A stretch of DNA of 64,000 nucleotides, taken from contig JAUVAV010000002.1 of NCBI GenBank assembly GCA_030591525.1, positions 1 to 64,000 on the forward strand, in the 5' to 3' direction. This stretch comes from a candidate division FCPU426 bacterium. GTDB lineage: Bacteria; Oederibacteriota; JAAXVQ01; JAUVAV01. A model generated the notes under the pieces. The model searched no databases and was not told the origin of the DNA. It saw only the letters and a list, made by a program, of their open reading frames with translations. Every line of letters starts with the position of its first letter. Position 1 is the first letter of the stretch. The position numbers and the translations under genes are program-made. Positions 10,981 through 37,500 of the stretch are shown piece after piece.

Positions 10981-13425
10981 TTATGCCGGGTCAATCCCCG
11001 GCTTTTTCTTTTGCAATAAGCGCTTAACCAGTTCTACGCATTTTACGGCATCAGGCGCATAGCCGTCAGCCCCAATTTCATCGGCATACTGCTGGGTAAC
11101 CACTGCTCCTCCCAGTATTACTTGAATACCAAGACCTCGGCAGCGAACCAGCGAGACCACCTTTTCCATTTCCAGCATAGTAGTGGTCATCAAAGCGGAT
11201 AATGCGATAAACTTCGCCTTATACTCGATAGCTTGTGCTAAAATTGTGTTTTCATCTACTGATTTACCCAGATCTATAATTTTATATCCGTTATTCCTTA
11301 ACAATAAACCCACAATTTTTTTTCCGATATCATGCACATCGCCTTTGACTGTCGCCAGAATACCCAAGTCCCGGCTGCCTTGATTTTCCTGATTAAGATA
11401 AGGCGTAAGTAATTGCATGCCCTTTTCCATGGTCTCCGCCGAAGCTATCAACTGGGGAAGAAAGTATTCACGCTGATCGTATTTATCTCCCACGGCTTGA
11501 ATAGCTGGGATCATTATCTTCTGAACTAAATTATAAGCCGGCAGGCCTTTTTTCAGGCCGGCTTGGATAAGAGCCTGAATTTGCGTCTTTTCTCCCTGGA
11601 GAATCTTTTCATATATCTCCCCTTCCAGGGAAACTTCCGCTTTTATTTTATGGCGGTGCGTCCGGGCCTTCTGCGATCCCTGGCTCGTGCATTGATTAAT
11701 AAACTCACGAGCGCCCTCATCCCGGCCGATTAAAACCTCCGAACTGTGTTTGATTTTCATCAATAACGCTTCCATGGGATTGGCTATCACCAGGGATAAG
11801 CCCGCTGCTGCCGCCATGGCCAAAAACGCGCTGTTCAGGAATTCCCGGCCCGGCAGGCCAAAAGAAATATTGGAGAGACCCAGGATAGTATTAAGGCCCA
11901 GCTCACGGGAGGCATAGCTTATAGTGCGAAGAGTAATATTAGGGCCGGCCGGATTGGCGGAAGCCGCCAGTGCCAGTCCATCCACTACCGCATTTTCACG
12001 GGGAATACCATGCTGCTCACAGGCAGCCAAAACCCGTTCCAGCACTTTTTGGCGGCCCTCCCAATCATCTGGGATACCGCGTTCATCCAGCGGCAATATA
12101 ATGAACGCCGCGCCATATTGCCGAATCATTGGCAGTAATTTGGCCAGTTTTTCCGCTTCTCCGGAGATGGAATTTACCAGGATCCGTCCCGGATATAAAC
12201 GCGCCGCAGCCTCTATTACTTCCGGCTGATTAGAATCAATGCATAGGGGCAGCTCTGAAAAAACCGATAATTCGGAAACCGCCTTGAGCATGGTATCCTT
12301 TTCTTTAATGCCCGGCATGCCCACATTAATATCCAGGATATCCGCTCCGTTTTCCTTCTGCTCTTTGGCGTAAGTTTTAAGGACATCCAATTTCCCGGCC
12401 TTTAATTCAGCTTGAAGCTCTGCCTTGCCCGTGGGATTAATTCTCTCTCCTACTACGCGAATTGGTTTTTCCGGATTGCTTGTAATAATAACGGTTTTTC
12501 TAGGGCTGGATAAAAGCAGTTCATTTTTTTTCCGGAGCTTTTTTATCCTGGTTTTATCTTTAAGCCCTTGGTTTAGGTCCCGGATATGCCTGGGTGTCGT
12601 GCCACAACACCCGCCTAAAAGGCTGACCCCTTCTTCCCGGAATGCCTCGCCGTATTCGGAAAATTCCTCCGGCCCCATGGAAAAACGCGTTTCACCTTTT
12701 TCTACTATTGGTAAACCGGCATTAGGTTTTATCAGAATCGGAATTCTGGCATAGGCATTAATCTTTTTAACCATTTCCAGCATTTGCCGCGGCCCGGCAG
12801 AACAATTCAGCCCGAAACCGTCGGCTCCCAGGGATTGAAGAATATTCAGGCACGTCAAGGGGTCGCTCCCGGTCAGGGTCTTTCCGGTTTCATCAAAAGT
12901 CATGGATACTATTATGGGACAAGCCGCCGCCTGTTTGGCTGCCATTAAAGCTATTCTGGCTTCCTGGATATCGATCTGGGTCTCAATAACTATTAAATCG
13001 ACCCCGGCCGAATCCAAGGCCCGGATTTGTTCGCTGAAGATTTCCAGCCCTTGGTCCCAGCCGGCCTCTCCGTAGGGTTGGTAGAAAATCCCGGTAGGCC
13101 CGACATTTCCCGCTGCCCATCGCCCTTGGGAATGAGCTGTTTCCAATGACAGCTCCGCCAGCCGTTGATTAATATCGGCAACTTGTTTTTCAAGCCCATA
13201 ATCACGAAGTTTAATCCGGTTGGCTCCAAAAGTCGGCGTATAGATGATCTCAGATCCGGATTCAAGATATTCAGCCTGGATTTTCCTGATAATCTCCGGA
13301 TGTTCAAGGCAGTAAACCTCAGGTGATCCTCCGGAAGGCATTCCCATTTTTTGGAGCATGGTTCCGGTTGATCCATCCAGTAAAATTATTTTTTTATTTG
13401 AACTCAAATCTAATTTGTTCTTCAT
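10981..13425 (-). CDS. metH: Cobalamin-dependent methionine synthase core (no activation domain)
   Basis: An 814-aa protein. Residues about 1-295 are a homocysteine S-methyltransferase barrel with zinc ligands NCS near residue 205 and GGCCG near residue 271. Residues about 315-575 are a pterin-binding domain (GERINPTGK, DINVGMPG). Residues about 600-814 are a B12-binding module with the cobalt-ligating DVHDIGKK near residue 698. It transfers methyl from methyl-THF via cobalamin to homocysteine. The C-terminal activation domain of E. coli MetH is absent, and the adjacent gene encodes it. ATG 13423-13425 overlaps the upstream stop (ATGA). A corrinoid methyltransferase for another acceptor is a less likely alternative. 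Confidence 0.9.
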   Translation of the reverse strand: MKNKLDLSSNKKIILLDGSTGTMLQKMGMPSGGSPEVYCLEHPEIIRKIQAEYLESGSEIIYTPTFGANRIKLRDYGLEKQVADINQRLAELSLETAHSQGRWAAGNVGPTGIFYQPYGEAGWDQGLEIFSEQIRALDSAGVDLIVIETQIDIQEARIALMAAKQAAACPIIVSMTFDETGKTLTGSDPLTCLNILQSLGADGFGLNCSAGPRQMLEMVKKINAYARIPILIKPNAGLPIVEKGETRFSMGPEEFSEYGEAFREEGVSLLGGCCGTTPRHIRDLNQGLKDKTRIKKLRKKNELLLSSPRKTVIITSNPEKPIRVVGERINPTGKAELQAELKAGKLDVLKTYAKEQKENGADILDINVGMPGIKEKDTMLKAVSELSVFSELPLCIDSNQPEVIEAAARLYPGRILVNSISGEAEKLAKLLPMIRQYGAAFIILPLDERGIPDDWEGRQKVLERVLAACEQHGIPRENAVVDGLALAASANPAGPNITLRTISYASRELGLNTILGLSNISFGLPGREFLNSAFLAMAAAAGLSLVIANPMEALLMKIKHSSEVLIGRDEGAREFINQCTSQGSQKARTHRHKIKAEVSLEGEIYEKILQGEKTQIQALIQAGLKKGLPAYNLVQKIMIPAIQAVGDKYDQREYFLPQLIASAETMEKGMQLLTPYLNQENQGSRDLGILATVKGDVHDIGKKIVGLLLRNNGYKIIDLGKSVDENTILAQAIEYKAKFIALSALMTTTMLEMEKVVSLVRCRGLGIQVILGGAVVTQQYADEIGADGYAPDAVKCVELVKRLLQKKKPGIDPA

Positions 13426-16514: not shown

Positions 16515-17321
16515 CTACTTTCCCAGCGCTGTCACTATCCTGGCAATCTCCCCCATATCAAGAGTTTCGGGCCGGCGCTTGAAATCAATGCCGGCCTGAT
16601 CAAGCGCCTCCTCCCAAGCTGAAAGCTCCGGCATTCCAGATATGCTTTGTATACATTTACGCAGCGTTTTCCGGCGGTGTGTAAACATACCGTGGACCAA
16701 GATAAAAAAATACTCCGGATTAGAGATTTCTATGGGTGGAGTGGACCGGCGGTCTATACGGACTATAGCCGAACTGACCCGGGGCGGCGGCTGAAACGCA
16801 GCAGCTGGAACTTTTTTAATAAAAGAAGGCTTGCCGTAATACTGTATTGCGATAGAATAGGCGGAATAATCCTTTCCGCCCGGCTGGGCGCACATGCGGC
16901 GCGCCACTTCTTCCTGGACCATAATCACTATTCTTTCGCACCCGTCTGGGGCAGCTAATAAATGTATCACCATTTGGGTAGCTAAATAATATGGCAGGTT
17001 GGAGACCATTTTTACTTTTTTATACCCCTTTTGGCGTAATTCCAAATTCAATGCCGACCAATCTGCCCGTCGGGCATCTTGATGGCGAATTTCCAGATTT
17101 TTATTATGCCCAAGTCTTTCATGCAGACGATTTGCCAGGCGCTCGTCCATCTCCATGGCTAAAACCTGTCCAGCTTGCGCTAATAACGCCTTGGTTAAAA
17201 CACCTTTACCCGGCCCAACTTCTATGACAGCATCCTCCCGGCTTAATTCAGCGCTATTAATAATCGGAACCAAAAATGAGAGGTCAACCAGAAAATGCTG
17301 GCCCAATCGGGGTTTTTTCAT
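16515..17321 (-). CDS. rsmA: 16S rRNA (adenine1518/1519-N6)-dimethyltransferase
   Basis: KsgA/RsmA dimethylates two adjacent adenines in helix 45 of 16S rRNA during small-subunit maturation. The protein is 268 aa. The N-terminal LGQHFLVD is typical. SAM motif I is IEVGPGKGVLT near residue 33, and the catalytic NLPYYLA motif lies near residue 106. The C-terminal part (RRKTLRKCI) fits the family. ATG 17319-17321 has AAAGGA upstream that overlaps the pdxA stop region. It follows pdxA by 6 bp; the pdxA-rsmA pair is common. Confidence 0.95.
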   Translation of the reverse strand: MKKPRLGQHFLVDLSFLVPIINSAELSREDAVIEVGPGKGVLTKALLAQAGQVLAMEMDERLANRLHERLGHNKNLEIRHQDARRADWSALNLELRQKGYKKVKMVSNLPYYLATQMVIHLLAAPDGCERIVIMVQEEVARRMCAQPGGKDYSAYSIAIQYYGKPSFIKKVPAAAFQPPPRVSSAIVRIDRRSTPPIEISNPEYFFILVHGMFTHRRKTLRKCIQSISGMPELSAWEEALDQAGIDFKRRPETLDMGEIARIVTALGK

Positions 17322-17327
17322 ACTGAA

Positions 17328-18353
17328 TTATCCTTTGGGACGCGAATTTATGACCATGTCAGCCGCCAGGGACAAAGCGGCTGACATGGAACCAGCTTGG
17401 GCCAGACCTTTTCCTGCCAGATCAAAAGCTGTGCCATGATCTGGTGAAGTGCGAATAATTGGGAGACCGGCAGTTATATTAACCCCTCGGTGAATCGCCT
17501 CCATTTTAAAAGGAATAAGCCCCTGGTCATGATACATGCATACTATCAAATCAAAAGATCGCATTATATCATTAGTAAACAAAGTATCAGGAGAGTATGG
17601 CCCGGTGACTTTAAACCTTTTATTATGGGCTAAATCCCGGATCGCTGGAATAATCTCCCGGATTTCTTCCCGGCCAAAAATACCGGCTTCGCCGGCATGA
17701 GGATTTAGTCCTGCTACTGCAATACGCGGCTGTTTAATATTGAGTCGCTCCTGTAGCTCCTTAACGGCAATATGAATAATTTTAATAATTCGCTGCCGGG
17801 TAATTAATTTCGGTACCCGGGCTATGGGCTCATGAATAGTCACTAATACCAGCCTGAACTTCCCATCCACAAACATCATGGCAAAATCCCTGGTTTTGGT
17901 TAACCGTCCGAGAAACTCAGTATGCCCGGAAAGAAATACTCCGGCAGCATGCCAAGCTTGCTTACAAATCGGAGCCGTTACTACGGCATCCGCTTCCTGG
18001 TTTAAAACAAATTTCACGGCGCGCTCAACCGCTTTATAAGATATCCGGCCGGTATAAGGGGTCCATTTTCCTGGTTTTATTCTACTGTGTGGAATGGAAT
18101 GATGCCAAACCGGTAAATGTCCAGGCCTAAACTCAACCTGACTTAACTCCTTGACCGGAATAACCTGTATATCAGCATGACAGATTTTAACTGCCTGGCG
18201 AATAACTTCCGGATCGCCCACCACCAGGGGCCGAATTCTCGCGGCGAGTTTTTTATCTTGCAGGGATTTTATTATAACCTCAGGCCCTATTCCAGCCGGA
18301 TCTCCCATGGAGATAGCTAAGCGGGGTTTGTAGGTTTTATCTCGGATTGGCAT
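17328..18353 (-). CDS. pdxA: 4-hydroxythreonine-4-phosphate dehydrogenase
   Basis: NAD-dependent, metal-using enzyme of the DXP-dependent pyridoxal phosphate pathway. The protein is 341 aa from the chosen start. SMGDPAGIGPEV lies near residue 16. The metal/substrate residues GHTEFLG, MYHDQGLIPFK and TSPDHGTAFDLAGKG are present. I chose ATG 18351-18353 because the N-terminus then matches the family. It overlaps the DUF1848 gene by 17 bp, indicating one transcript. A longer start (to 18422) would add residues unlike the family. PdxA2-type enzymes act on other hydroxy acids, so substrate is inferred. Confidence 0.92.
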   Translation of the reverse strand: MPIRDKTYKPRLAISMGDPAGIGPEVIIKSLQDKKLAARIRPLVVGDPEVIRQAVKICHADIQVIPVKELSQVEFRPGHLPVWHHSIPHSRIKPGKWTPYTGRISYKAVERAVKFVLNQEADAVVTAPICKQAWHAAGVFLSGHTEFLGRLTKTRDFAMMFVDGKFRLVLVTIHEPIARVPKLITRQRIIKIIHIAVKELQERLNIKQPRIAVAGLNPHAGEAGIFGREEIREIIPAIRDLAHNKRFKVTGPYSPDTLFTNDIMRSFDLIVCMYHDQGLIPFKMEAIHRGVNITAGLPIIRTSPDHGTAFDLAGKGLAQAGSMSAALSLAADMVINSRPKG

Positions 18354-27900: not shown

Positions 27901-28187
27901 CGGTAATACTTACCACTGTAACCACCTCGGTCGGACTTTTTCCCCTGGCTTATGGCTGGTTCGGTGGGGATGATCCCTTTATCCGGCCCATGGCCCTGGT
28001 CTTCGCCTGGGGCCTGGTTTTTGCCACTGGAATCACCTTGTTCATTATTCCCTGTTTCCTGGCTATCAGCATCAACGTGAAAACACTCTTAAAAAGGATC
28101 TTTACAAAAGATGCCTCCGAGGCCTTGATTTTCAGAAAATTTCGCCCCCTAAAATCTCCGGTCTTAAAAAAATCCAGAAAAGCCTAG
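24975..28187 (+). CDS. RND-family efflux transporter (AcrB/MexB-like)
   Basis: A 1070-aa inner-membrane proton antiporter. It has the expected two-fold layout: TM1 near residues 12-30, a porter domain with SQAGPEEIEKLITIPIENAI, TM2-6 with the proton-relay motif GMMVDDAIVVGENVYRHLE near residue 397, then a second porter domain and TM8-12. The second half has a rather long insertion around residues 690-730 (SRPAPEKSIRPV...). ATG 24975 has AAAGGAG 7 bp upstream and is preferred over an ATG 13 codons earlier that lies inside tolC. Its TAG stop (28185-28187) lies within the CTAG start of a family B repeat. Substrate is unknown. Confidence 0.9.
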   Translation: MGLIRYFAQKSIFVNLLAVFVTVAGGLTFYNSAKEVFPQIKLGYIVIYTVYSQAGPEEIEKLITIPIENAIEDIKDVKDITSWSSEGLSMIGVELEPSTEDIDKVLDDIKAEVEKVKDLPQEAEDPEIFEISSDIFPLINVSLSGGENYAQLRDAAKILEEKISRIEGVGQGEKWGYYDRAIWIDVDKNRLEKYGLTLFNFISVLQDRDISMPVGNKVFGKKEYSLRFLSPMDNAQDVKNVIIRSNEAGHHVQVRDVARVSDGFKDEDLYMRSQGERAVMLQVMKQRGYDSIKITREVRRIAAELKKEFPPDIQIAFSDDTSVYLNNRLKVLYSNGAFGALLVVFMLLLLLRPSVALATAIGLPVAFTMAFFITKSAGLSFNMISIFGFIMVLGMMVDDAIVVGENVYRHLEHGAKPFDAAIIGASEMIMPVIASVTTTIAAFLPLLMVGGMMGEFLSSIPKVVIIALLASLIECFFILPSHLADFVKPKKHLISEGVQEHWFSLLRNKYGQALNWVLHRKLIFALMILVLLVASAALEWRNGLVFSEAQISEITVNLKTIKDYSLDDTEAVVKKIEKKIMQLSEQDLEAVNSYVGMQENRQGPPKFAPNMAQIRVVLHIEDERQTTDANKIVTQLREWIGKPTGVQELKIDLVKGGPPTGAAIDIVLSGASYVELQSVSSELMDQIREITLPAKKSGFFSRPAPEKSIRPVKELYTDFEEGKKELRLIVDEAKASLAGVNLTQASTLLRAAIAGIKLKTIKKLGEDIDVMVRVNENNITSISDLLCLRVPNNMGNRILLKEIVRVEKGTAYSELKHKNGKKSLSVLGTIDKTKANVNAVNQKIKPLLKKFRKKFPRFEFETGGEQKEMVEAFTDLGKAFAVALFLIFIILATLFNSLGQPIIIMLAIPFGFIGVMLTLIFHGMPISFMAFMGFIGLTGVVVNDSLIMVSFINNLRKQGEKIEKAIIEGAKTRLRPVILTTVTTSVGLFPLAYGWFGGDDPFIRPMALVFAWGLVFATGITLFIIPCFLAISINVKTLLKRIFTKDASEALIFRKFRPLKSPVLKKSRKA

Positions 28188-28275
28188 GAGCCTGTCGGAC
28201 TTTATTGTTGACTTATGATATACTGACAGCAGTTTCCCCCTTTTCAAAAAGGGGGATTAAGGGGGATTTTATAGA
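28184..28275. repeat. Family B end plus family C hairpin
   Basis: CTAGGAGCCTGTCGGACTT at 28184-28202, matching both ends of the element at 43391-43486, followed by CCCCCTTTTCAAAAAGGGGG and AAGGGGGATTTT. It supplies the stop codon of the RND gene. No gene is seen between 28188 and the transposon. Confidence 0.75.
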
Positions 28276-28319
28276 TGTGTTTGAAAACCTGGAAGGCATA
28301 GTTAATCATAATGTGTGAT

Positions 28320-29394
28320 CCAGGACGGAGTTAGCTTAGTTTCATAATAATTTAAGCCCTCGGTCATTGGCAACCTTCTCCCCTAGCTTGATCAACCTGT
28401 TTAGCGATGGCCTGGCCATTTCCAGAAATCTTGCTATCTCCGCTCCACTTAACCCAACTTCGAGATATCCCCAAAATGCCATCACCCTTTGGCATAAGTA
28501 ATATTATTTCCCCTCCCCTTTTTTCTTAAATCTTCTTTCCCAACAGACATGATACCACAAACTTTTTCTGCTATTCGCTCCAAATGCCAACCGGCTCGTT
28601 TTAAAACCGCATTCACAAATTCCCCGTCTCCAAGAATCTGTTCTTCTCCACGCCAATATTCTTTATTCCGCTTCAATTCTAACATCCCTCTCCATCCTCC
28701 CGCACTTCTTTTTATTCCTCCGCCTACCAGTTCTTCCCGTTTTCCCATAAACCATCCATCTTCTATAAATTTCTGATAAGCCTTTTGCGCCTGGCTTTTC
28801 TTAGTTCCAAACTGTCCTAATATTTTATCGGTTGATTGCCATTGAAACTTCTGTTTTCTTGTATAAACTGAATGTCCGGTCCAGGGATACTTGTCTAACT
28901 CGCCTATGGTTGTGATAAAATCGGCACGTACAGGATTGAGGTGTATGTATCGAATTAATTCCAATAAATAGTTATCTTCTTGGCACAAGATTGATTTAAA
29001 ACGATTTTGATACAAATATCCAGTACGCTTATGCCTGTGGTTGAAATAAATGGCATACCCAGTTAGCATTTTCCTCATGAGTTCACTTAAGAATTTTTCA
29101 GATGTACGGACTAAAAGATGGACATGGTTGGTCATTAACGCCCAGGCATAACATTTACTTGAAGTTTTATTTAACGCCAGAGCAAATCGGCGCAGAAATT
29201 CTTTGCGGTCTGCTTTATCCTTGAAGAGAGCCGCTCTATTCAACCCGCGGGTGATGACGTGATAGATGGCGCCTGGAAGGTTTAATCGTCTCTGTCTGGT
29301 CATACTTATCTAGATAGAATATTTCATTTTTTCTTTCAATCTTTTTTAATTATTTTCATAAACCATTTATGAAGCTAAGCTAACTCCGTCCTGG
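28320..29394. mobile_element. Transposon-like unit with 20-bp perfect inverted repeats
   Basis: CCAGGACGGAGTTAGCTTAG at 28320-28339 and its exact complement at 29375-29394 bound a single Y1 transposase gene. The 1075-bp unit abuts an ankyrin-repeat remnant on its right. Inverted ends are not typical of IS200/IS605 elements, which use subterminal hairpins, so this arrangement is notable. Confidence 0.75.
28482..29303 (-). CDS. REP-associated tyrosine transposase (Y1/HUH), frameshifted at the C-terminus
   Basis: A 273-aa single-strand transposase of the TnpA_REP type. HVITRGLN near residue 16, the HUH pair in NHVHLLVR near residue 60, and the candidate catalytic Tyr in LTGYAIYFNHRHKRTGYLYQNRF near residues 87-107 are visible. 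The frame stops at TGA 28482-28484. Reading one base out of phase from there continues for about 47 codons to 28342 with a helix-turn-helix (GLSGAEIARFLEMARPSL) usual for the family, so the intact gene would span 28342-29303. The shift is next to CCAAAGGG. It could be a mutation, a programmed frameshift or a sequencing error. Confidence 0.88.
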   Translation of the reverse strand: MTRQRRLNLPGAIYHVITRGLNRAALFKDKADRKEFLRRFALALNKTSSKCYAWALMTNHVHLLVRTSEKFLSELMRKMLTGYAIYFNHRHKRTGYLYQNRFKSILCQEDNYLLELIRYIHLNPVRADFITTIGELDKYPWTGHSVYTRKQKFQWQSTDKILGQFGTKKSQAQKAYQKFIEDGWFMGKREELVGGGIKRSAGGWRGMLELKRNKEYWRGEEQILGDGEFVNAVLKRAGWHLERIAEKVCGIMSVGKEDLRKKGRGNNITYAKG

Positions 29395-29770: not shown

Positions 29771-32005
29771 TTAAACACGTCCCCTTAGTTCCTTTTTCAA
29801 GTGAATAGACCTAATTGCACTACTGGCGGGTAATTTGCGATCCAACAGTCTTCCCGCTAACTCTACTGACCTCGAGGGCCAGAGGTTTACATGAAATTGC
29901 ATCGGAAGATGTGGAATCGGAGATGGCTCCCAATTGTACCGGGCATGCACGAGACGATTGTCTACGAACCATCGAATCGTCGCAGGATACCATTCAACTC
30001 TGTAGCGATGAAAGTCCTCGGATGCATCAAAACCGAGATCAATGAGGACCGGTGTACCTCTGTAACCATATTCAAACCTCGCCCCTTCGCCTCCTGGATT
30101 ATAGTACACATTCAACAACACCTTGGTTGTATCTTTGCCAAGAAACTCAATATCGATCTCTTGGCGCGGGGAATTCCGGTGTAGAAAGACTCCGGTTACT
30201 ACGCCAGGAACACTCGCCGGTTTAATTTCAGCCTCAAATCGACCATATAAAAACTTTTGTCGGCTACAGATCGAAGCAGAGGTATAATCCCGAACGCCCG
30301 AACTCTCCTTATGCAGAATTAATCTTGCAGTACTATCATTCGTAGTTGTAAAGTTGGATGGATCGAAAAGCGCTAAATTGCTCGGAAAGGTGTCGTCTCG
30401 TAATAGCCAGAACGAATTGTCGAGCTTGCGAAAAAACTCGCATACCGTTGACCACTCATCAGCCATCTCTTCAAAGTTTCCCCCATCAGTTGGCACCCCG
30501 ATCCAGTTTTTGCTTAAACTAGCAATCCAAGGTGTTACATCGAATTTCAACCTATGCGTTCGGGGAAAATGGTCCCGGCTGACATTTATAGCTCCCAGAG
30601 AAATTCGCCGCTGCGTTTGGTCCACGAACGACGGGTATTCAGCAGTGGGTGAAACACACTCAAGAAATTCGCAAATAGATTTCCATTTGTCCAATTCCTG
30701 TGCAGGCAATATCAATAAATTATCTGACAGTTGCTGGATCTGATGAACTAGTTTGTGAATATCTCGTTGGTTGCCCTTGTTATCTGACTCTTCATGCTCA
30801 TTGCATTTTTCAACCTTTAATTCTGACAAATCACCCTTGGCATTTTCTGCGATAATGAACCTTGCGTCGGGGTACACATTCGCAATTTCTTCATAGTGTC
30901 CATCCAGTGATCCGATATTAACATATGCATTAAATACTCGCCCCTTCTTGTTACGAAATAGATTTTCACATTCGGTCGTCGGCAATTCATTAATATCACT
31001 GCAGCAGCGATAGCCAAGCATCGAGAGCGCCATGGCAAGCGACGTTAATCCAGCGCCGTTCTCGCCGACAGCAAAAACAGGGCCCTTCAATGGTCTCGGT
31101 GCAAACTGTAATGGCTTTTCCTTCTTAAGAATTCCAATCTTGGACAAAACAGGCAGAATCGAGTATGAATTATCTGATCGATGGTCCAATCTTTGATTGA
31201 TGATGGATATTGAAGTAGCAAATACATTGAGTTTTTCAAATTGATGGTTAATCCATAGATCAATGGGGCCACGAACGGGAAGGAGGCTCAAGAGTTTACG
31301 AGCCCCCCTCTTAGATAAGACGTATCCGGATAGGAACCACAAGCCACAATACGCTCGAAAGACAAAGTCAGATACATCAGATTTTTGTGCCTTAGTTTCT
31401 ACCTCTTTGTAGGACAAATATAAGACATCAAAGGACGGTGGGTATCCATACGCATTTCTCAGATCTTTCCATGCATGGTCCATAATTTGAGCGAACTTGC
31501 GGTGAAAGCAAATGTCGTCCTCAAGCACCAACGTATAGCCATGTTCACCTGAGGCTATACGTTTCCAAACCTCAATATGCGAAAGCGCCACAGCCACCTC
31601 TTGGCGTGTCATTTGAATACGTTGATCAATATTTACTCGACCTGTTGATATAGCCGGCTGTGGCTCCACATACAGCTGATCAGCAAGCGAGTAGTACGTC
31701 TCGATTATCGATTCGGCAGGGGGGCCTGCATAGTCTTTTGCATTAATTGCCGAAAAACGCTTCGTCAATTCAATTAGAGGCGCCCCAGAGTCGTTGTAAA
31801 TCTGTTGTAATTCTTGTTGCATTTGGCGCCATCGAAGAGTTTGTCGATCTAGGTTGATGACATATATCTTTTGGATCGTTTCAAATGACGAGTCAGTCGT
31901 GCAACCAAATGACTTGCAGACAGGATTTGCGGCTATCCAACGTCCTCTGAGCGCAACTCGATATGCAAACCGAAAAAGCCTACCTGGGTAACTAAAATGG
32001 TTCAT
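29771..32005 (-). CDS. Fusion: GT25 glycosyltransferase + sulfotransferase-like + GH16 glycosidase
   Basis: A 744-aa protein. Residues about 45-270 match GT25 (LPS-type) glycosyltransferases: KIYVINLDRQ at the start and LVLEDDI near residue 160 as the metal-binding acidic motif. Residues about 308-480 start with FAVGENGAGLTSLAMALSML, a pattern like the PAPS loop region of sulfotransferases, but the usual Lys/Thr is changed, so activity is doubtful. Residues about 575-735 are a GH16 beta-glucanase/agarase-type domain with the catalytic EIDIE motif near residue 617. No signal peptide is visible. ATG 32003-32005 has GGAGA upstream. A glycosyltransferase gene precedes it by 45 bp. A role in making or trimming a surface glycan is inferred. 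Confidence 0.75.
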   Translation of the reverse strand: MNHFSYPGRLFRFAYRVALRGRWIAANPVCKSFGCTTDSSFETIQKIYVINLDRQTLRWRQMQQELQQIYNDSGAPLIELTKRFSAINAKDYAGPPAESIIETYYSLADQLYVEPQPAISTGRVNIDQRIQMTRQEVAVALSHIEVWKRIASGEHGYTLVLEDDICFHRKFAQIMDHAWKDLRNAYGYPPSFDVLYLSYKEVETKAQKSDVSDFVFRAYCGLWFLSGYVLSKRGARKLLSLLPVRGPIDLWINHQFEKLNVFATSISIINQRLDHRSDNSYSILPVLSKIGILKKEKPLQFAPRPLKGPVFAVGENGAGLTSLAMALSMLGYRCCSDINELPTTECENLFRNKKGRVFNAYVNIGSLDGHYEEIANVYPDARFIIAENAKGDLSELKVEKCNEHEESDNKGNQRDIHKLVHQIQQLSDNLLILPAQELDKWKSICEFLECVSPTAEYPSFVDQTQRRISLGAINVSRDHFPRTHRLKFDVTPWIASLSKNWIGVPTDGGNFEEMADEWSTVCEFFRKLDNSFWLLRDDTFPSNLALFDPSNFTTTNDSTARLILHKESSGVRDYTSASICSRQKFLYGRFEAEIKPASVPGVVTGVFLHRNSPRQEIDIEFLGKDTTKVLLNVYYNPGGEGARFEYGYRGTPVLIDLGFDASEDFHRYRVEWYPATIRWFVDNRLVHARYNWEPSPIPHLPMQFHVNLWPSRSVELAGRLLDRKLPASSAIRSIHLKKELRGRV

Positions 32006-32050: not shown

Positions 32051-32899
32051 CTAGTCTCCTTCCGCAAAACCTTTTCCGTTTGAGAGCCTCCAATTTCTGG
32101 TGTCATTTCGATAACTTAATGGCCAGGGACTTATTGACATAGTTTCCCAGTCAGACAAGATTAGAAAACCATGAGATTCTCCGGCCATTTCTTGGGAAAT
32201 AGCATGTCTAACTAGACTAGCGGTGAAATTTCCTGGACCGGTTGTAGATTGGATTTCTGGCATCTCTTTAGAGTTTATTAAAATGTGCGTTGCCCTTTCG
32301 AGCGCAAGGCGAACTACTGGATGTCCAGCAGGTGCGATTAGAGGGTTGTTGTTAAAGTAGAATATCCAACTGTTTGAGCATAGTCCATCTTTCATGAAGA
32401 CACTAGGCTCGATCATTGCTCCAGTTTCGATGTCGTAGCAAAGGGGTTGTAACTTTATTCTGTCATCATAAAAAAGGTGGTTCAGATCCTCTCCTTGATA
32501 CATTTCATCCGCATCAACGTAGAATCCTCCATTTGTCAAAATATAGCAAAGTCGAAAATAGTCACATCGCATTGCTGGGTGATAACAGCGATCAAAGGCC
32601 TGGACGTGGGTAGATTCAAACTGAGTAGAAATGTAACGTCTAGCTTTTCGATCATCAAAAATTAACCTAAAAAAGCCACGAGCTTCAAGTGGTTCCCAAG
32701 TATCAAGACATCTTTGCACGTCTGTGGGTATTCGGCCGAAGTCGTCCCAAAATTGAACAATTACCTTTGGTATTTTGCCTCTGAAACCTAAAGGCGGCAC
32801 CTGTGAAAATCGAGGGGCTTGAACGAGACTTCGGACGTAGCTGGAACGAGAAAGATCATTCTCTGCGCAGTCTATTGGATCGTGAAAGAGATGGTTCAT
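32051..32899 (-). CDS. Glycosyltransferase with DXD sugar-binding motif
   Basis: A 282-aa protein of the Gly_transf_sug/TcdA-like type. IPKVIVQFWDD near residue 44 opens the fold. MRCDYFRLCYILTNGGFYVDADE near residues 108-131 has the family's R-D pair and the DXD metal site that binds the nucleotide sugar. The C-terminal part (STGPGNFTASLVRHAI) also fits. ATG 32897-32899 has GGAGAG 3 bp upstream. It begins with MNH like the downstream fusion protein, and the two form a small operon in AT-rich DNA, which suggests a transferred glycan cassette. The acceptor is unknown. Confidence 0.82.
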   Translation of the reverse strand: MNHLFHDPIDCAENDLSRSSYVRSLVQAPRFSQVPPLGFRGKIPKVIVQFWDDFGRIPTDVQRCLDTWEPLEARGFFRLIFDDRKARRYISTQFESTHVQAFDRCYHPAMRCDYFRLCYILTNGGFYVDADEMYQGEDLNHLFYDDRIKLQPLCYDIETGAMIEPSVFMKDGLCSNSWIFYFNNNPLIAPAGHPVVRLALERATHILINSKEMPEIQSTTGPGNFTASLVRHAISQEMAGESHGFLILSDWETMSISPWPLSYRNDTRNWRLSNGKGFAEGD

Positions 32900-33014: not shown

Positions 33015-33541
33015 TAACTTCCCATACGGATTTTTTTGAAAATTATTAACTCACACAGTTCAATCTAATTATAAATAAAATTAGCTTTCTTCAAGAATAT
33101 TACCCATATTATTATCCATATTTCAAATAATTCAAACTTTTTTCAAATACGGCAGTATATTTCTTAGAAAAAACTGATAGGAATTTACTGACTGATAGGA
33201 ATTTGCTTTTCTGAACAAAATATCATTCCTGCTAAAACGCGTCAATTACTTTATTGTACACCATCCCAAACCTGCCAAAATCTACTTCCCTTTCCAGCTT
33301 TGCTGATAGCAAATTGCTTTAGAAGGATAGTATAAAATAAGCTGGAATAGTATGTCAACAGCAAGCTTCGGGCTAAAGAGGGCGTTCTCAGACTGGTGAA
33401 AACTCTAATCTGGTGGTCGGCAACGATTTTCCAGCAGCTTTTCTACACTTCAGGTAAAAATGACCTTTCTAATAGTCTGTTGAGACAGTTCTTTCCTATG
33501 CCCCAGCTACCAATTCTTCCGGTTCAAGCTGGAAATTTTTA

Positions 33542-33732
33542 GGTGCCGGAGTTCAAATGTTCAAATAAGAAAATAAAAAAAGTATGCAATAAAATCGCGA
33601 AAGATCTGCCATAATGTTTTATGGCCAGACAGAAGAGATAAAACATACCAGGAGCAATCCATCACATCATTACCCCAGGATTGAACGGGATGACGATACA
33701 AAACCTTATTTGAACATTTGAACTTCGGCACC
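33542..33732. mobile_element. MITE-like element with 28-bp inverted ends
   Basis: Left end GGTGCCGGAGTTCAAATGTT continues to 33569. Its complement ends at 33732 with one mismatch over 28 bp. The element is 191 bp, has no transposase, and contains a GCCATAA/TTATGGC hairpin inside. A short frame across it is not a gene. Confidence 0.7.
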
Positions 33733-34893: not shown

Positions 34894-35027
34894 TACAAAC
34901 TTGACAGGGAAACATCCGTGCATCCCTATTCCTCCCTGTACTCTTTTGACTCTTCCTTTTTATTTGACTCCACATATTTCCAGCCCGGCCGGCACTCCGG
35001 TTTTCATCATCTGCCTTACCGACAACT

Positions 35028-35055
35028 GTAGGGGCGACGCATGCGTCGCCCCTAC
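35028..35055. repeat. Family A palindrome
   Basis: A perfect 28-bp palindrome, GTAGGGGCGACGCA and complement, between the ends of the outer-membrane protein gene and comEC (convergent). It may serve as a shared terminator. Confidence 0.8.
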
Positions 35056-35091
35056 CCGTGGACAGCACATACAAGCTTTCAAGTCTCCCCG

Positions 35092-37500
35092 CTATTTCCA
35101 GGTTTGCCAGGAAATAGCGCCCGGCCGAAGAGTTACTTCTACTGCCCCCTGGCTTTTAGTATTCAGCACTATTCCGGAAAAATCATTCAGGCGTTCCAGG
35201 GTTTCCCAATCAGGCAAGCCAAAGGGATTGCGGTTACCCGGTGTTACTACTGCCACTTGCGGTTGGACTTGAGCTAATAATCCGCATGAGCTTGAATCCA
35301 CTGCGCCATGATGTCCGGCTTTCAGCAGATCGCAGGCTTTATCCAATTGCCACTGAGCTTCTATTTTATCAGGACTGTCACCGGTAAAAAGTAGCCGGCC
35401 GGCCAAAGAATTAATCCATACTGCCAGTCAGTGTTTATTATCCCCGGCCGTTCCTCCCCGAGGCGGCCAGATGCTCTCAATCTCCATGCCCGGGAATATT
35501 TTCAGACTTTCTCCTCTTCTTAAGATAATATGAGAAACATCACGCCGCTTAATTGCCTGTTCTATGGCTTTGACCTTCGGCTTGGCTGAAGATCCCAGCC
35601 CGGCGCTGATCAATTTTGGGATACAAAAAAAGTCCAAAGCTGCCGCCGTTCCGCCGGCATGATCCGCATCCGTATGCGACAGGAGTAAGGCGTCCAAACG
35701 ATTAATGCCCCGGCCGGCTAAAAATGGTTTAACCCGCCACAAAAATCCCTGTTCCGTGCCCACATCAATTAGTATTCTGGTTCCCTGCCCATTCTCAATT
35801 AAGGCAGACTCCCCGATTCCCAAAGAAAGAAATGTTACCCGAATTTCTCCCGGCCTGGGACTGGATGGTCTGAAAAGCGGGTAGACCAGTATTAATACTG
35901 CTCCGAGTAAAAGCCCGGTTATTCGAATTACTCTATTGGTTTTTTCTATGGCGTGCTTGTTTTCTTGGGAAGTGGGATGGTTTTTCCGGTTTGGTTTTGT
36001 CTGGATTGGAGGTTTAAACCCCATAAATAACGCCGCCGCTATATAGAGGCTCATGGTCCACCAGCCGGCCCCGGGCCAAAGAAAAATGCGCCCTCCCGGC
36101 AATTCACCGACCAACCGCGCCGCGCCGGTTAATCCCCGGACCGCCCAGCCGGCCAGCCATCCGACTGCCTCAGCCCCTCCCGGCCATATCCACGCCAGCA
36201 AGGCGGCCAGCAACCCATTAACTACTACGGCGCTTAGCAGCGGGATAGCTATCAAATTCGCAGCTACGGAAACCGGAACCAGACTGAAAAAATGATAAAT
36301 TGTCAAAGGCGCGGTTCCTATCCCGGCTGCTCCTGAAACCAAAATGGAGTTTAGAGGCCAACGAATTATCAGCGGCTTTTTTTCCATCCTCCGGACTAAT
36401 GGTATTACTGCCAGTATAGATGCTGTGGCGGAAAAAGAAAGCTGAAATCCCGCATCTTGGCATGCCATGGGATTGTTGGCCAGAAGAATCAGACCGGCCA
36501 GGGCCAAACCTGACCCCGGATCTCCCCGCCGGTCGGCTAATCCGCTCAGGACCATGCCGGCTATCATAACCACGGCTCTAACTACGGGAGCTTTTCCGCC
36601 GGTCGCCAGAGCCAACAAACCTATGCCCAAGCATCCGGTTACCAGGGATATTCTTTTTGGAATCCGGAATATTCTGAGTAATCCGCACCAGGCCCCGAAG
36701 ACTATACCGACATGGAGCCCGGAAATTGCCAATACATGCGCCAGACCCGAGGCCGCCATATGCTCGCGCTCCAGCCCGGAAATTCCGGAGCGGTCGCCAG
36801 CCACCAGCGCCCTAACCAGACCCCTGGCATCTTGGGGTATGCTGCGTCTAATCCCTTCCACTAAAACGCGATGCAGTTTCCCGGCTATCCGGCCCGGAGA
36901 AAAAAACTTGGCCTGGCGTTCGCGAACCGCGTCCCCCGATTTCATGCCTTTTAGTCGTGCGCGAATGCCGTAACGGGCCAGAAAAGCGGCGTAAGCAAAC
37001 TCTCCCGGATTCACCGGGGCGTCTACTCCCTGCAGCCAGCCCCGTACTCTTATGCGGTCGCCGGGATTCCAGGCTTTGGCCTTACCCGGCATGGAAAAAC
37101 GCACCCGGCCTGTGACTGGATATTTTAGTTCGCGCCACTTCGCCTCTTCACATGCCAGTACGCCGGTCCAGTACCGGCCCGCCCGGGCCGGCTGTGTCAG
37201 GCCGCAGAGTTTGCCTTGTAAAATAATATCCCGCCGCGGAATCCAGCGCGAGATATCATGGGAAGCCACACATCCCGCTTGTATAGCCAGCCCGGCATAA
37301 AGTGAAAAAACGGCTCCCAGCAAAAGCGGAAACGCCTGGGAATTATCCCGCCGCCACCAGGCAGCCATAGCCGCAAGCAGCGCCAGGCCGAACCAAATCC
37401 GGGGAGAGATTGTGGGTAGATAGGGCCCGATCAGGCATCCCAGAAAAGCCGCTATTGCCAAAGGAATGAGAGGACGCTGGATATACTGGTATGCAGACAT
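35092..37500 (-). pseudogene. comEC: ComEC/Rec2 DNA-uptake channel interrupted by an in-frame UGA
   Basis: The inner-membrane channel that imports single-stranded DNA in competence. The first 690 codons hold the N-terminal OB-like DUF4131 region, the ComEC membrane domain (GLAHVLAISGLHVGIVFG near residue 250, many TM helices) and the start of a metallo-beta-lactamase domain with HTDADHAGG near residue 610. UGA at 35428-35430 ends the frame after WPPRGGTAGDNKH. The same frame then continues to 35092 with the expected C-terminus (LLFTGD, LLKAGHHGAVDSSS). Without it the lactamase-like domain is incomplete. Other genes here end in UGA, so it is a real stop; a sequencing error is possible. Confidence 0.85.

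Follow-up and report, generated by a model that had tools for sequence, protein, structure and literature searches.

Each domain encoded at the locus described here has known relatives. The GT25 family comprises LPS galactosyl/glucosyltransferases and procollagen galactosyltransferase, the oxamniquine-activating sulfotransferases of Schistosoma have a Sulfotransfer_4-like fold, and carbamoyltransferases of the NodU/NolO/WapO type carry two Carbam_trans domains. The GH16 domain considered below is most similar, in sequence and in fold, to licheninase (a 1,3-1,4-beta-glucanase, GH16_21) and ExoK. A comparable set of activities, with no stated homology, works in the methylmannose polysaccharide cycle of mycobacteria (ManT, MeT1, MmpH), where a cytosolic transferase, a modifier and an endo-hydrolase cut and re-prime a glycan, the endo-mannosidase making primers for its own transferase (PMC9883506). 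The mycobacterial cycle is chromosomal and uses an alpha-mannan and methylation, whereas the cassette described here is mobile and combines a GH16 domain with predicted carbamoylation. Hachiman and Gabija are found in the same slot of the same family of integrative conjugative elements (ICEs) as this cassette (see below), yet they are nuclease/helicase systems and have no domain in common with it.

The cassette was analysed in a 64,000-nucleotide stretch of DNA from a candidate division FCPU426 bacterium (the whole stretch is referred to as the window). It consists of a GT32-type glycosyltransferase gene and a gene for a three-domain fusion protein, often accompanied at related loci by a third gene for a NodU-type carbamoyltransferase. 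The individual domains are ordinary; their combination and setting are new, and the function itself is one that we infer. No literature on a combination of GT25, sulfotransferase and GH16 was found in open-access papers, nor was a described protein joining GT25, a dead sulfotransferase and GH16. Intracellular synthesis or cleavage of a glycan chain is, to our knowledge, not a feature of any characterised defence system. The features of the cassette in the window are the following:

29771-32005, minus strand: three-domain fusion GT25 / pseudo-sulfotransferase / GH16, 744 aa; an unbroken frame of 744 codons filling exactly this interval from ATG to stop, with Pfam matches and homologues at 36-61% identity
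31259-31873, minus strand: GT25 domain, residues 45-249 (PF01755, E 2.4e-19)
31514-31522, minus strand: GT25 acidic motif E162-D163-D164, conserved in every alignment row covering it
30596-31075, minus strand: middle domain, approximately residues 311-470, a sulfotransferase fold without PAPS motifs (PF17784 above cut-off, profile and fold match)
31034-31072, minus strand: decayed PAPS-loop position, residues 312-324, FAVGENGAGLTSL; Arg/Lys not conserved in 14 homologues
29867-30364, minus strand: GH16 domain, residues 548-713, nearest to 1,3-1,4-beta-glucanases (PF00722, E 2.5e-32; PDB sequence and fold)
30146-30160, minus strand: GH16 catalytic motif EIDIE, residues 616-620; E616, D618 and E620 unchanged in every homologue covering it
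32051-32899, minus strand: partner GT32-type glycosyltransferase, 282 aa (PF04488, 24.3 bits, cut-off 23)
32507-32515, minus strand: GT32 DXD motif D129-x-D131, invariant in 12 homologues

Architecture of the fusion protein and its partner genes

The original prediction described one protein joining a GT25, a sulfotransferase-like and a GH16 domain, and Pfam indeed found all three above their cut-offs (GT25, 70.4 bits against 24; Sulfotransfer_4 over residues 311-386, 29.0 bits against 22.8; GH16, 112.2 bits against 22). The first domain, placed in GT25 by the curated cut-off together with the acidic EDD motif, matched procollagen galactosyltransferase 1 in the PDB and differs from the family in being joined to two further domains. 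The last domain matched the beta-jelly-roll fold of GH16 and carries the ExDxE triad, so that the EIDIE motif is intact as had been stated. Its closest solved relatives in the PDB, by sequence as well as by fold, were 1,3-1,4-beta-glucanases, and the string EIDIEFLGKDTTKV is common to it, licheninase and ExoK. Unlike these two enzymes, it is fused to other domains, has no signal peptide and carries a shorter, basic loop ahead of the catalytic motif, with invariant H609 and R610; the fusion stayed below the corresponding NCBIfam equivalog cut-offs (BglS, 125.6 of 300 bits; ExoK, 75.9 of 350). Sugar transfer by GT25 and GT32 is predicted, and trimming or transglycosylation by GH16 is plausible.

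In agreement with the expected cytoplasm-type protein, no signal peptide or membrane helix was evident in the fusion. The N-terminus is basic in the alignment rows having that part and amphipathic beyond shuffles in some homologues only, which is suggestive of an N-terminal amphipathic helix. The AF2 model of the full-length protein was moderate (pLDDT 69, pTM 0.42), and its domain arrangement and active-site geometry were left uninterpreted. The sole PHROG match covers the GT25 part, and annotated records label the fusion ‘family 16 glycosylhydrolase’ or similar.

The middle domain is a pseudo-sulfotransferase, with a sulfotransferase fold from which both PAPS-binding motifs are lost. A profile of eight middle-domain homologues gave significant matches in the PDB to sulfotransferases only (5tiz, E 3e-5), and the 15 best Foldseek matches of the AF2 model of this domain (pTM 0.73) were sulfotransferases as well (probability 1.00, TM 0.48-0.58 on the query). 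The structure prediction proposed earlier for the middle region thus led to sulfotransferases, and an unrelated fold is contradicted by the profile and fold searches alike. The best matches in both searches were the Schistosoma enzymes, compared to which the middle domain has a helical segment deleted and lacks both the PAPS-loop Arg and the Arg..Ser that binds the 3'-phosphate. We confirmed the predicted degeneration of the PAPS loop, where GENGAGLTSL (GxxGSGLTSL) replaces the GLPRTGTKSL of solved sulfotransferases; the basic residue of this loop (5'-phosphosulfate) was not conserved in any of 14 alignment rows, and the same holds for the 3'-phosphate-binding Arg..Ser. With the PAPS-binding residues lost, the suggested modification by sulfation is unlikely, and active sulfation was rejected as a function. 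A comparison of the Klebsiella copy with that of E. coli gave dN/dS values of 0.10 for GT25, 0.31 for the middle domain, 0.44 for the linker and 0.07 for GH16, indicating strong constraint on GT25 and GH16 and moderate constraint on the middle domain.

The partner gene lies 45 bp upstream of the fusion in the window, and its score above the cut-off together with the DXD motif places it in GT32 (Gly_transf_sug). A pairing of the fusion with this upstream DXD glycosyltransferase had been proposed, and the two genes adjoin each other in 14 of the 15 loci with an intact or nearly intact fusion, L021 being the exception (the window, L014, L015, L016, L017, L018, L020, L021, L023, L025, L037, L038, L041, L044 and L045; near-copies counted once, L045 cut by a contig end). 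The NodU-type carbamoyltransferase, with both Carbam_trans domains, was adjacent or very near in nine of them (L015, L017, L018, L021, L025, L037, L038, L041 and L045) and scored below the NodU equivalog cut-off of NCBIfam (253.8 of 1000 bits). None was found in the window's genome by a search run without a positive control.

Horizontal spread of the cassette

Homologues of the fusion were found in several bacterial phyla, mostly at full length. A tblastn search of PLSDB retrieved the architecture in full (94-97% coverage, 37-46% identity) from Klebsiella michiganensis, Citrobacter freundii, Rhizorhabdus, Sphingobium, Rhizobium and four Aliarcobacter plasmids. The E. coli ICE bears the cassette in 4 of 5426 genome records, two of which are the same strain, and other copies came from Colwellia, one further genome of its order and an Acidimicrobiaceae MAG. 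The copy in a Planctomycetota MAG (61% identity) has no N-terminal part and adjoins a transposase-like gene, and that of Pseudoalteromonas is decayed. The hosts of L021 and L019 are MAGs, for which the taxon may be a binning error. Four viral contigs bear the cassette (alignment queries), while a scan of viral contigs and a phage collection with a single protein gave no match. Overall, the cassette is mobile, being found on plasmids, conjugative elements and prophages and in distant bacteria.

In the tree of the fusion, the window and the planctomycete form one pair, Aliarcobacter and Colwellia another, and Citrobacter is placed with Rhizorhabdus; this mixing of phyla points to horizontal spread. 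Vertical inheritance was rejected on the basis of the tree and of the window's phylum, where one of 45 genomes, the window's own, has a full-length fusion. The GC3 values of the fusion (0.44) and GT32 (0.37) are lower than those of most sampled neighbours (0.49-0.61), which fits acquisition of both genes from elsewhere. In three samples the fusion was present in 2 of 296, 1 of 369 and 1 of 294 genomes (approximately 0.3-0.7%), each count including the genome on which the sample was centred.

The surroundings of several copies contain traces of mobile elements. In the window, a Y1 (IS200-like) transposase gene (28482-29303) lies between the two arms of a 28-bp inverted repeat (96%; 28320-29394) on one side of the cassette, and an opposite-direction fragment on the other (33621-33686; 33620-33686) matches the first 22 residues of this transposase, so that the cassette has an intact element as one neighbour and a remnant as the other. 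Short dispersed repeats of 30-100 bp also flank the region (28183-28280, 33190-33360 and 35017-35060); they recur in many contigs of a congeneric genome (G001) and have a REP- or MITE-like appearance. A ComEC-like gene at 35092-37500 is split into 690 aa and an other-frame fragment (35092-35406) by a frameshift or sequencing error, and forms one 804-aa frame in the congener. The congener was checked for an empty cassette site, and its contig stops just past ComEC. On the Klebsiella plasmid (L014), the cassette lies between direct 300-nt copies that are 97% identical (12613-12912 and 17272-17571), located at small tyrosine recombinase genes, and these repeats could permit its excision; the E. 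coli ICE retains a decayed recombinase gene on the same side. The Citrobacter IncC plasmid (L025) carries the cassette together with resistance genes (blaLMB-1, sul1, arr-3 region), and an Aliarcobacter butzleri plasmid (L026) carries it together with erm(B) and aminoglycoside genes.

Defence genes near the cassette and the ardC-mobC slot

PADLOC recognised defence genes near at least 11 of the 15 loci, the scan reaching at most part of the surroundings in the case of the window, L021, L037 and L045; none was recognised near the window's copy in the part scanned. Gabija directly adjoins the cassette in Colwellia and is nearby in L044, Lamassu is near it in L041 and the E. coli ICE, and Lit is found near it in L038 and, with Shedu, in Aliarcobacter (PADLOC, annotation). 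AbiD and SngA are near the Rhizorhabdus cassette, DUF262 proteins near those of Rhizobium and Citrobacter, a methyl-directed nuclease near that of Klebsiella, and E1-like and Fic genes near that of Sphingobium (all PADLOC, the Fic gene assigned from annotation). The genes of the cassette themselves (fusion, GT32 and carbamoyltransferase) had no match among the PADLOC models at E 0.01. Adjoining the Aliarcobacter cassette in L016 (9863-13555) is a 1230-aa protein that matches nSTAND3 weakly (E 0.0023) and none of the PADLOC models at E 0.01; it may represent a further, uncharacterised defence protein.

A set of six plasmids was compared with the opposite-side windows of the same plasmids as a control, a comparison that comprises six replicons and was not blind. 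The PADLOC matches in the test set were Orf5, PDC-S06, Lit, SduA, SngA, AbiD, SoFic and NsnA. Among the matches listed for the control at E <= 1e-15 were reverse transcriptase models (one a group II intron), a methyltransferase, a mad3-like ATPase, homing-endonuclease models and DrmD; no dedicated defence matches beyond the methyltransferase and broad models were seen in the control windows. DrmD matches occurred in control and test set alike, and probably stem from transposition genes.

The strongest single observation is that the cassette lies in a slot that elsewhere accommodates proven anti-phage systems. Between ardC and mobC of the E. coli ICE, four genome records have the cassette, the closest ICE relative (strain A38) has Gabija, with GajA split by IS3 plus GajB, and strain K71-77 has the Hachiman genes HamA/HamB, as do further records by annotation; the slot is empty in other records. 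Because it can also house the non-defence genes hchA and lysE, this remains guilt by position. The cargo left of ardC in this ICE family (L072-L080) is, by annotation, a defence island with Kiwa, ABC-three-component systems, TIR proteins, a retron Eco8 effector and restriction-modification genes. The recurrent location of the cassette in defence islands and in this slot is as expected of an anti-phage role.

Possible roles of the cassette

We tentatively favour the explanation that the cassette is a horizontally moving, self-contained cytosolic module that builds and trims a glycan and serves in conflict with phages or mobile elements. A role in conflict appears most likely because the cassette is carried like, and exchanges places with, proven anti-phage systems. 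The cassette would act in the cytosol, possibly at the inner membrane face, where the two glycosyltransferases would build a short oligosaccharide or glycoconjugate and GH16 would cut or transglycosylate the product, probably at a beta-glucan-like linkage. Where present, the carbamoyltransferase would cap the product with carbamoyl groups, and the dead sulfotransferase domain, kept as a fold, would probably bind a ligand or the nascent chain, or position the two active domains. A cytosolic or inner-leaflet oligosaccharide is suggested by the intact transferase motifs and GH16 triad, the frequent carbamoyltransferase and the lack of an export path. The range of hosts (enterobacteria, sphingomonads, Campylobacterota, Planctomycetota and an actinobacterial MAG) favours a system that is self-contained and depends on common precursors only.

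The defence role rests on position, from which the cassette may be an unrecognised glycan-based defence system. Position alone argues weakly for defence, since defence genes abound on plasmids, ICEs and prophages, and the rarity of the fusion, below that of common defence systems, speaks against it. A more specific version is possible, if on the doubtful side: a new anti-phage immunity in which an intracellular glycan is made, carbamoylated and cut, or a phage component is glycosylated, with the pseudo-sulfotransferase as a sensor or scaffold gating GH16.

The original prediction suggested that the fusion could make a surface polymer, which we favour less than a cytosolic module. No flippase, polymerase or transporter/exporter recurs in the compared neighbourhoods or is annotated beside the cassette, the fusion has no signal peptide, and sphingomonads, which lack LPS, are among the hosts, so that one shared surface acceptor is doubtful. 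An alternative explanation is that the transferases and the carbamoyltransferase decorate the LPS core or another inner-leaflet lipid-linked saccharide and thereby mask phage receptors, as in serotype conversion, with GH16 editing the chain. GT25 covers LPS-core transferases (Pfam name), and the basic N-terminus, amphipathic in some homologues, and the carriage on prophages and the ICE are consistent with such a modification. Carbamoyl groups also link to this idea, as one in Pseudomonas LPS cores was attributed to wapO (PMC8005017) and the phage-resistance hits of P. syringae pv. porri included Tn5 insertions within a carbamoyltransferase gene (PMC7216180). Receptor masking would fit the defence slot too. 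However, the hosts include LPS-less sphingomonads and an actinobacterial MAG, neither flippase nor polymerase is recurrent beside the cassette and a non-exported GH16 is hard to fit, and we regard this explanation as rather doubtful.

The cassette could also be metabolic or stress cargo, providing a capped cytosolic oligosaccharide that aids the host and has no role against phages, similar to the mycobacterial methylmannose polysaccharides. The activities match this known cytosolic cycle of transferase, modifier and primer-making endo-hydrolase (PMC9883506), hchA is also found in the E. coli slot, and the Rhizobium copy is otherwise surrounded by metabolic genes. Recurrent dedicated anti-phage neighbours, and a site where the cassette alternates with Hachiman and Gabija, count against such cargo, which we consider unlikely. 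GT domains are present in known toxins, and on a mobile cargo the transferases might attack a target, either in competitors or, in the manner of a toxin-antitoxin system, inside their own cell; however, a secretion signal is absent, no immunity or antitoxin gene is recurrent and the endo-glycosidase and carbamoyltransferase would have no role, which makes a toxin very improbable. A chimeric assembly or chance frame is practically out of consideration as the origin of the fusion, since the identical architecture is present in independent finished plasmids and chromosomes of several phyla and is under purifying selection.

For the favoured cytosolic glycan module, the close copies on E. coli and Klebsiella elements allow direct tests, in E. 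coli K-12, of the proposed role against phages as well as of the glycan chemistry. Should a role in defence not hold up, the cassette would still be an unexplained, widely travelling cargo, carried in part on plasmids with antibiotic-resistance genes.
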